Shown here: piece by piece, positions 27,215-31,675 of the stretch
Layout: each line of letters opens with the position of its first letter
Position numbering within the stretch: position 1 is the first letter of the stretch
Assembly (NCBI RefSeq): GCF_001274875.1
Contig: NZ_CP010899.1
Coordinates: 744,001-808,000, forward strand
From: Spiroplasma kunkelii CR2-3x
GTDB taxonomy: Bacteria > Bacillota_I > Bacilli_A > Mycoplasmatales > Mycoplasmataceae
Reading direction: 5' to 3'
Length of the DNA stretch: 64,000 nt
Translations under genes and position numbers: made by a program
The notes under the pieces: model-generated
Seen by the model: the letters and a program-made list of their open reading frames with translations, nothing else
Told to the model about the DNA's origin: nothing
Database searches by the model: none

Positions 27215-27429
27215 GAGTATAAACAAACTTATTAAGAAATAAAAAATTAGCAAAATGTATTAAAGAACTTAATATTACTTTTATTATGTTTATTTTTTTG
27301 TAAAAAAAGTTTTTAAAGATACAAATTTTAAACTTCCTACAATTTAAATTTATAACTTTAAAAATAATTGTCAATATTTTTTTAAAAAATAGTGTATAAA
27401 TAACTTTAAAAAGATTGGAGATTCAATAT

Positions 27430-28318
27430 ATGAAAGATTATACACATGTAAAATATGATGAACGAAGATTTTTTAAATATTTATTATCTTCTAATTCTTG
27501 TAAAAAGAAAAATGGTACGCTTAATTTATCAGAAATAGCAAGACAAATAGGAAGAGATATTAATACTGTTAAAAGAGAAATTAAAAGATTTAAAAATATC
27601 GAAAATTATACAGCAGTTGAAGCACATAAAGACTATAAAAAAAGCGTAAAAAGAAATTATTTATCGTTATTTTTTAAAGTTTTAAGTTAAATTTCCTTCT
27701 TGTGTTAAAACATTGTATAAATGAATTCATTTAGGTCTTTTTGGTTTGTTAAAGAAAAATTTATTAAATGGTGGTAGAAAAAATAGAACAAAGAAAAGAC
27801 CTGATAATCGTGGAAAATTAAATGAAAGATTTACGTCAATTTGAGATATTGAAAATAAAGTTTCTAATGTTGGTTGATTAGAAATGGATGCTGTTGAAAA
27901 AAACCATCAATCTAGTTGTTTAGTTTTAGTAGAACAATCAAGTAAAAATTATTTTGTAATGAAATTAAAAAATCATACTGCTAATGAGGTTTTAAAAAAA
28001 CTTGAAGAATTAGTTAGAATTAATGGTTTAGTTGGAAAAATTAAAGTAATAATAACTGATATAGGTAAAAAATTTAGTAGAGAAATGGAAATATTTTATG
28101 AAACACAAGTATATTTTTGTGATGCTGGTTCACCACAACAAAAACCTTTAATTAAATATATGAATAGTGAATTCAGACATTGATTTTCTAAGGAAATTGA
28201 TTTTAATAATGTTAGTCAGAAAAGAATAAATTCAGTAGTTAATATTATAAATGATAAATTTCGACCGTGTTTAAATTGAAAAAAAGCAAAAGAAGTATTT
28301 TTACAGAATATTAAATAA
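27430..28318 (+). pseudogene. IS30 transposase type A, internal deletion and lost catalytic Glu
   Basis: Starts MKDYTHVKYDERRFFKYLLS with GGAG upstream and keeps the N-terminal helix-turn-helix (INTVKREIKRF). About 40 codons are deleted near 27655, with a frame change. The catalytic part resumes as MDAVEKNHQSS and IITDIGKKF, but the third acidic position reads PLIKYMNSEF where the intact copy has PLIEYMNSEL. It ends at 28318. With both defects it cannot be an active DDE transposase. Confidence 0.85.
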
Positions 28319-29931: not shown

Positions 29932-30033
29932 AAATGAGTGGTTAATGTTTAAAAAGCAAAAGCATTAACCTATAGCGTCTTTTTCCAATGGTAAGACGTA
30001 GAAACACTAGACCATATTATTAGTATATACAGG
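29932..30033 (-). promoter_or_regulatory. Purine riboswitch (guanine-type) and expression platform
   Basis: Aptamer on the minus strand, 30033 to 29969: P1 arms CCTGTA and TATAGG; loop-2 signature AATATGG; joining strand GTTTCTAC; P3 arms GTCTT and AAGAC around ACCATTGG; junction GCT before P1. The C at the specificity position predicts guanine or hypoxanthine rather than adenine. Downstream GGTTAATG and CATTAACC form a stem that uses the GG of P1, so ligand binding and this stem exclude each other. A T17 tract follows at 29895-29911. P2 is short (ACTA/TAGT). Confidence 0.82.
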
Positions 30034-30095
30034 TATATAATTTATTTTTATACTTATATCATAACTTCTTTTTTATCAAAAAGCAATTAAAATAA

Positions 30096-30239
30096 AAAAA
30101 AACAATCCGGGTGAAATTGTTTTTTAGGGTATCCATGGAAGTATAAGATAATATAATACAAAGTATGGTCATATTGATAGGGCTAAACTTGTGCTGTTTA
30201 TTATTTTAATAAAAGTACAATTCTTATACTTCCCTAGAC
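30096..30239 (-). ncRNA. Candidate small structured RNA, about 140 nt
   Basis: The minus strand has TTGAAT (30269-30274), 16 bp, TATAAT (30247-30252), then within 10 nt the start of a region closed by a 12-bp perfect stem GGAAGTATAAGA (from 30235) and TCTTATACTTCC (to 30133). It finishes with AAAACAAT/ATTGTTTT plus nine T at 30098-30127. No open frame inside. It precedes the riboswitch gene but is separated by its own terminator. Not recognised as 6S, SRP, tmRNA or RNase P RNA. Confidence 0.55.
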
Positions 30240-30246
30240 ATTTATT

Positions 30247-30274
30247 ATTATATAGTTCAAAAAATAAAATTCAA
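30247..30274 (-). promoter_or_regulatory. Sigma-A-type promoter of the small RNA
   Basis: -35 TTGAAT and -10 TATAAT with 16-bp spacing, 7-10 nt before the proposed RNA start. Confidence 0.6.
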
Positions 30275-30591: not shown

Positions 30592-31675
30592 ATGAATAAA
30601 CGAAATAATACACGAAAAGTAATGGTTGGTAATGTTCAAATTGGCGGACAAAATAAAGTTGTTATTCAATCAATGACTAATACAAAAACACACGATGTTG
30701 AAGCTACTTTAACGCAAATCAAACAACTATATCAAGAAGGTTGTGAAATTGTTCGAATTGCTGTTTTAGGAAAAGATGATGCTGCTGTTTTAAAAACAAT
30801 TGTTAAACGTTCTCCTTGTCCATTAGTTGCAGACATCCATTTTAATTATGAATTTGCTTTAATTGCTGCTGATGCTGGTATTAGTAAAATTAGAATTAAC
30901 CCAGGAAACATTGGAAGTATTGAAAATACAAAAAAAGTTGTTAAAAAATGTCTTGAAAAAAAGATTCCAATCCGAATTGGGGTTAATTCTGGTAGTTTGC
31001 CATTAGATCTTGTAAATAAATATGGTTGAACTCCCAAAGCAATGATTGAAAGTGCTCGTCGTCATATTAAAATTTTAGAACATCTTGGTTTTTATGATAT
31101 TATTTTATCTTTAAAAGCAACCGAACCATTAATGGCAATTGAAGCTTATACCTTAGCTAGTAAAGAATGAAATTATCCCCTTCATCTAGGGATTACTGAA
31201 GCTGGTAGTCATCATACCGGAACAATTAAATCATGTAGTGGTTTGTCACCGCTTCTTTTTAATGGTATTGGTGATACGATCCGAATTAGTTTATCAACTG
31301 ATCCAATAGCAGAGGTGGAAGTTGGTAAACGAATGTTAAATTCATTAGGACTTTATGATAACATTGTTGATATAATTGCTTGCCCAACATGTGGTCGTTT
31401 AGAATATGACCTTTTCCCCGTTGTAAAAGAATTAGAAGAATATACAAAAGATTTAAAAATTCCATTAAAAATTGCCATTTTAGGTTGTGTTGTTAATGGT
31501 CCCAGGAGAAGCTAAACAAGCTGATTTAGGGATTGCTGGTGGTAAAAATGGTGGAATTATTTTTAAAAAAGGTAAAATTTATAAATCATGTAAACAAGAA
31601 GATCTTGTTCCAGAATTAAAACTATTAATTGATGAATATTATCAAGAATGACAACAAAAAAAAATTCAACAATAA
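30592..31675 (+). pseudogene. ispG: 4-hydroxy-3-methylbut-2-enyl diphosphate synthase, one-base frameshift
   Basis: GcpE/IspG of the MEP isoprenoid pathway: an iron-sulfur enzyme reducing MEcPP to HMBPP. VVIQSMTNTKTHDVEAT, VADIHFNYEFAL, KIRINPGNIGS and LHLGITEAGS are family blocks. Iron-sulfur cysteines are in CPTCGRLEYD and CVVNGPGE. At 31500-31503 an extra C turns GPGEAKQADLG into GPRRS-stop; the correct sequence resumes in the next frame to TAA 31675. The break removes about 57 residues. It could be a sequencing error because all else is intact. Confidence 0.9.

Follow-up and report, generated by a model that had tools for sequence, protein, structure and literature searches.

A putative regulatory small RNA gene with a co-evolving closing stem and exposed C-rich motifs, shared by related bacterial genera

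The window (the whole stretch of 64,000 nucleotides analysed here) carries on its minus strand a predicted small RNA gene, followed by a known riboswitch. The features of the locus are as follows.

30094..30240, minus: small RNA gene, about 147 nt, its 5' end inferred from the -10 box
30247..30274, minus: promoter TTGAAT-16-TATAAT (-35 at 30274-30269, -10 at 30252-30247)
30222..30240, minus: 5' arm of closing stem P1 (UGUCUA-G-GGAAGUAUAAGA); the arms co-vary in other genera
30189..30220, minus: AU-rich hairpin P2, seen only in the window's genus; sequence varies, hairpin kept
30174..30187, minus: conserved core UUUAGCCCUAUCAA, containing the 9-nt AGCCCUAUC
30155..30175, minus: weak hairpin P3 (AAUAUGA/UUGUAUU)
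30130..30148, minus: 3' arm of closing stem P1 (UCUUAUACUUCC-A-UGGAUA), from the fold
30127..30130, minus: linker ACCC between P1 and terminator, predicted unpaired probability 1.0
30094..30125, minus: intrinsic terminator, a hairpin whose loop is C-rich (CACCC), with a T run, from sequence and fold
30052-29953, minus: purine riboswitch RF00167 (46.9 bits), same strand as the RNA and downstream of its terminator

Judged from the -10 box, the predicted RNA starts near 30240 with UGUCUAGGGAAGUAUAAGA and ends in the T run near 30094. An earlier note on this DNA had proposed a non-coding unit of 140 nt framed by this promoter, a 12-bp long-range stem and a terminator, and each of these parts was located. 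The 12-bp stem (GGAAGTATAAGA/TCTTATACTTCC, arms at 30137-30148 and 30222-30233) turned out to be longer than proposed, since six further pairs lie beyond one mismatch (UGUCUA/UGGAUA, 30240-30235 with 30135-30130), giving P1 18 pairs. A simple terminator scan of the region returned 0 sites, probably because the hairpin is AU-rich; in the predicted fold, a 12-pair hairpin stands ahead of the T run. The only small open frame, of 50 aa, starts in the core with no visible ribosome site and is broken in relatives by one-base indels, so there is no conserved reading frame. A mobile element with terminal inverted repeats was ruled out by the single genomic copy and the differing flanks.

The minus-strand fold was more stable than that of shuffled sequences (z = -4.16; 0 of 200 shuffles as good), with a z of -2.23 for the plus strand. 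Over 38 family members the mean fold z was -4.0, and the RNA strand was stabler than its complement in 37; this set omits the truncated copy in G011, as well as G036 and G022, both of which were read later. Taken as a lone consensus match, the promoter is at chance level (5 sites in the region versus 6.4 in shuffles). It is the fold and the conservation, rather than the single promoter match, that go beyond chance. Based on sequence and fold, we consider it almost certain that the window RNA is a real conserved structured RNA gene, and it is probably transcribed from its own promoter to its own terminator.

The RNA is present in 14/14 genomes of the window's genus (g1), and the window genome holds one full-length copy. 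In the 13 intact g1 members the -10 box is identical and the promoter spacing is 16-17. The core segments ACAAGUUUAGCCCUA and AAUAUGACCAUACUUUGUAUUA are invariant across the genus, the exception being changes between the two halves, and the core is predicted to be unpaired beside the AU-rich hairpin. Hairpin P3 has no covariation evidence because it does not vary inside the genus. In G011 (L019) the 5' half of the RNA is replaced by sequence up to a coaX-like gene; this is a natural broken copy, and it may be dead since that half is lost. In G001 (L021) a short stretch of the core around AATATGACC is duplicated in tandem.

We searched 46 other genomes of the family for the 14-base core, allowing up to one change, and read out the matches. 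The core UUUAGCCCUAUCAA or a near variant, with the parts in the same order, is found in 41 of 42 genomes from seven related genera. Complete units were seen in g1 (14/14, counting the G011 copy that lacks its 5' half), g11 (20/20), g12 (3/3), g7 (1/1), g8 (1/1) and g10 (2/2), and the sole miss was G018 (g6). We infer that g7, g8 and g10-g12 are Spiroplasma lineages. The exact core was absent from all 18 genomes of g2, g3, g4, g5 and g9, five other genera of the family. When the core half was run through BLAST, weak matches recurred in five g11 genomes. In g11 the unit runs from a -10 box and a GUCU start through a second motif UUAGCCCAU to the core UUUAGCCCUAUCAAAU; then come a 3' arm and a terminator whose loop is CCGCCC. 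The 3' arm pairs with the 5' arm, and neither resembles the window arms. In G036 (g12) the unit was identified through a second exact core match. G022 (g10) was missed by the core search and found by a covariance model built without the window's genus (R2, E 1.3e-9). It retains the loop AGCCCUAUC while three flanking bases on each side have changed together (CAU/AUU versus UUU/AAA). The folds predicted for most other-genus members have AGCCCUAUC as a hairpin loop.

Member lengths range from 115 to 158 nt. A script cut out the twenty-five other-genus rows by seeking TATAAT/TATACT upstream and, downstream, both CCC and a T run; because of this selection, the -10 box and C-rich end of those rows are partly there by construction, though their folds are not. 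A PyNP-like gene ends just upstream of the RNA in 14/20 g11 loci (it is absent in G065, G074, G075, G077, G079 and G082). Downstream, a tRNA cluster in the same direction follows in 5/8 scanned other-genus loci; in L139, L142, L156, L160 and L161 four or five tRNA genes come directly after the RNA.

The earlier note had looked to compensatory changes in the long stem, and these were found in other genera but hardly within g1 itself, where 58 of 500 shuffles matched the two pairs with two-sided changes. Since covariation within g1 is thin, the case leans on the other genera. We used an alignment of 21 sequences from g7, g8 and g11 (A3), with none from the window's genus; it also leaves aside G023, which nearly duplicates G063, and the g12 and g10 rows, which are divergent. 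In A3, 90.1% of cells were paired for the named structure. Two-sided changes affected 10 pairs and 27 cells, versus 3.9 and 10.2 in shuffles, and 0 of 500 shuffles reached the observed values; controls with slid partners gave 4-7 pairs and 5-9 cells. Changes on both sides were present at eight of the 14 pairs in the closing stem. We also compared arms across the 38 members: own arms pair at a mean of -16.7 kcal/mol and between-genus swaps at -7.9 kcal/mol (868 swaps), with the weakest own-arm value reached by 287 of the 868.

All 14 g1 loci score with R2, at 17-36 bits. The window RNA scored 29.8 bits (E 2.4e-5 in 2.5 kb without filters), where chance reached 28.2 bits, and it was missed when the whole window was searched with default filters. 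The chance value comes from a coding match in a viral contig that had been selected for holding the core. Forty-two viral contigs contain the 16-base core and three gave R2 E <1; the one examined was coding, and we took these matches as chance. Among 12 core-less genomes (G018 and 11 of the 18 above), the best R2 match had an E of 0.042, with no core at the match. A model built from 12 g1 sequences (R1, leaving out G011 and G001) detected no relative that convinced, either in 11 family genomes or in 16 other-genus ispG loci plus L085, and is too specific. Its weak match in G021 lies inside a guaB-like gene, and other weak matches (L071, L121-L124) were coding or unrelated sequence. In g1 as in the other genera, the 14-base core has the same place between promoter and terminator, the RNA starts with GUCU(A/G), a closing stem is present and the terminator loop is C-rich. 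The window RNA follows the family order of -10 box, core, closing stem and C-rich-loop terminator. On the strength of core and architecture, with weak support from covariance models, the g1 RNA is likely homologous to those of the other genera, and we take it as one member of a Spiroplasma-wide family.

The earlier note had called the RNA unrecognised, which agrees with a search against Rfam 15. The RNA scored above no family's gathering threshold in the window, in four g1 loci or in eight other-genus loci, and what passed were the purine riboswitch and tRNAs lying outside it. We found no description of it in the main texts of the open-licence PMC papers searched. Start sites have been mapped in S. 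melliferum, and small RNAs are mentioned only in general terms in the available part of that paper (PMC5138195). A single-copy structured RNA, outside Rfam and so widespread in the lineage, would count as a regulatory RNA gene spanning this whole lineage of insect and plant bacteria. The co-evolution of the stem and the nearly unchanging C-rich loop point to an important, putatively regulatory job. The MCS4 RNA of Mycoplasma capricolum is a small RNA reportedly found in a relative.

Exposed C-rich motifs recur in these RNAs. Three CCC per RNA were found in 13 g1, 20 g11 and one g7 rows, three exposed CCC in g8, and two in the three g12/g10 rows, with 0.16-0.82 expected per RNA in shuffles. The observed motifs are nearly all predicted to be unpaired. 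The extra sites differ by clade, being the linker ACCC in g1 and UUAGCCCAU before the hairpin in g11. In S. aureus RNAs, unpaired UCCC motifs in hairpin regions bind Shine-Dalgarno sequences, and accessible C-rich boxes have been termed a possible general signature (PMC3861533, in the part available). The window RNA resembles the S. aureus Rsa-type RNAs and RNAIII, as that part describes them, in being a small structured RNA of a low-GC Gram-positive lineage with several unpaired C-rich segments. It differs in having GCCC/ACCC rather than their UCCC, in matching none of them in sequence and in having putative targets only. A stand-alone gene, a promoter and terminator of its own and accessible C-rich motifs were all found in its sequence or predicted fold. 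By analogy, a trans-acting antisense regulatory RNA of the Gram-positive C-rich-loop type is the best explanation, one that we hold tentatively and with a little less than even confidence. The co-evolving closing stem would hold the RNA together and display unpaired C-rich segments, namely the conserved AGCCCUAUC, the CCC in the linker or second motif, and the CCC in the terminator loop. These putative contact sites would start pairing with G-rich stretches of target mRNAs, and such pairing might alter translation or decay of the targets.

In a small test, the three C-rich segments were set against 35 translation starts in the window for Shine-Dalgarno pairing, and they did not clearly outdo shuffled segments, which equalled or beat them in fractions of 0.735, 0.095 and 0.82. 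Twelve one-mismatch matches to the core elsewhere all lay inside unrelated open frames, and no target is named from them. Because the 35-start test gave no signal, a protein partner is a serious rival. It is possible, if somewhat unlikely, that this is a near-universal housekeeping-type RNA with a single conserved partner bound at the AGCCCUAUC loop. Such a partner would be a protein or else a conserved RNA from the machinery of translation or transcription, and the RNA might replace functions, such as that of 6S RNA, which the lineage lacks. A narrower form, which we rate as unlikely, is a housekeeping or sponge RNA whose loop and repeated exposed CCC motifs are bound by a conserved protein instead of pairing with mRNA. 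The near-universal presence of the RNA in the lineage and the repetition of similar motifs within one molecule speak for a bound protein, as does the tRNA cluster that follows in 5/8 scanned loci. A conserved 9-nt loop is also expected of a protein-binding RNA, and G022 keeps this loop while its closing pairs change. However, this reading comes without a known protein partner, and the extra CCC motifs are placed differently between clades.

That the RNA is a 6S RNA that has diverged and binds RNA polymerase is improbable. The clade is without a recognised 6S RNA, and the long closing stem with an open middle is a likeness to RF00013. The 6S model, however, detected 0 of 60 relatives, including the 14 g1 members; its control was positive in 5 of 14 known genomes. 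A small size, exposed CCC motifs and a terminator attached to the RNA are not known as traits of 6S RNA, and the window RNA shows all three as well as C-rich loops.

In 10/14 g1 loci the downstream gene is that of a Bmp lipoprotein, on the same strand, and the purine riboswitch lies between it and the RNA in the window. The RNA could thus be read as a cis-acting leader or attenuator of that gene, which is very unlikely. A YqeG-like gene is downstream in G001 and G013, and the gene downstream in G003 and G005 is convergent, an arrangement that already contradicts a leader. The unit is closed by a terminator, and the other genera have the PyNP-like gene upstream and tRNAs downstream. Given the variety of genes downstream and the one convergent arrangement, we regard the RNA as a stand-alone gene. 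The purine riboswitch gene of the earlier note is indeed downstream on the same strand, but it is a separate transcription unit rather than part of the RNA, and it is not adjacent in all relatives, other genes lying downstream at 4/14 g1 loci. Bmp and GcpE were named by Pfam, PyNP by Pfam in one locus and by eye in the others, and the remaining genes by eye.

The shape switch that the earlier note had proposed, in which an AAGTA/TACTT hairpin competes with the long stem, is possible in the window sequence, where a seven-base pairing between the 5' arm and the core could form as well, but it is scarcely credible because both halves of the hairpin are found in just 5/13 g1 members and the other genera have an unrelated 5' arm and no counterpart.

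Three further observations concern the neighbourhood of the RNA. By eye, a candidate separate promoter, TTGCTT-17-TATGAT, lies between the RNA terminator and the aptamer of the Bmp (PnrA-like) riboswitch, within 29953-30060 on the minus strand. A transposase remnant at 27415-28318 on the plus strand is split across two frames and has an integrase-core match below the Pfam cut-off. The ispG (GcpE) frame at 30592-31675 on the plus strand encodes 307 aa, versus about 353-373 aa in other g1 members, and its C-terminal part runs on in another frame at 31487-31675, which suggests that the frame shifts near 31500 or that the sequencing is in error there.
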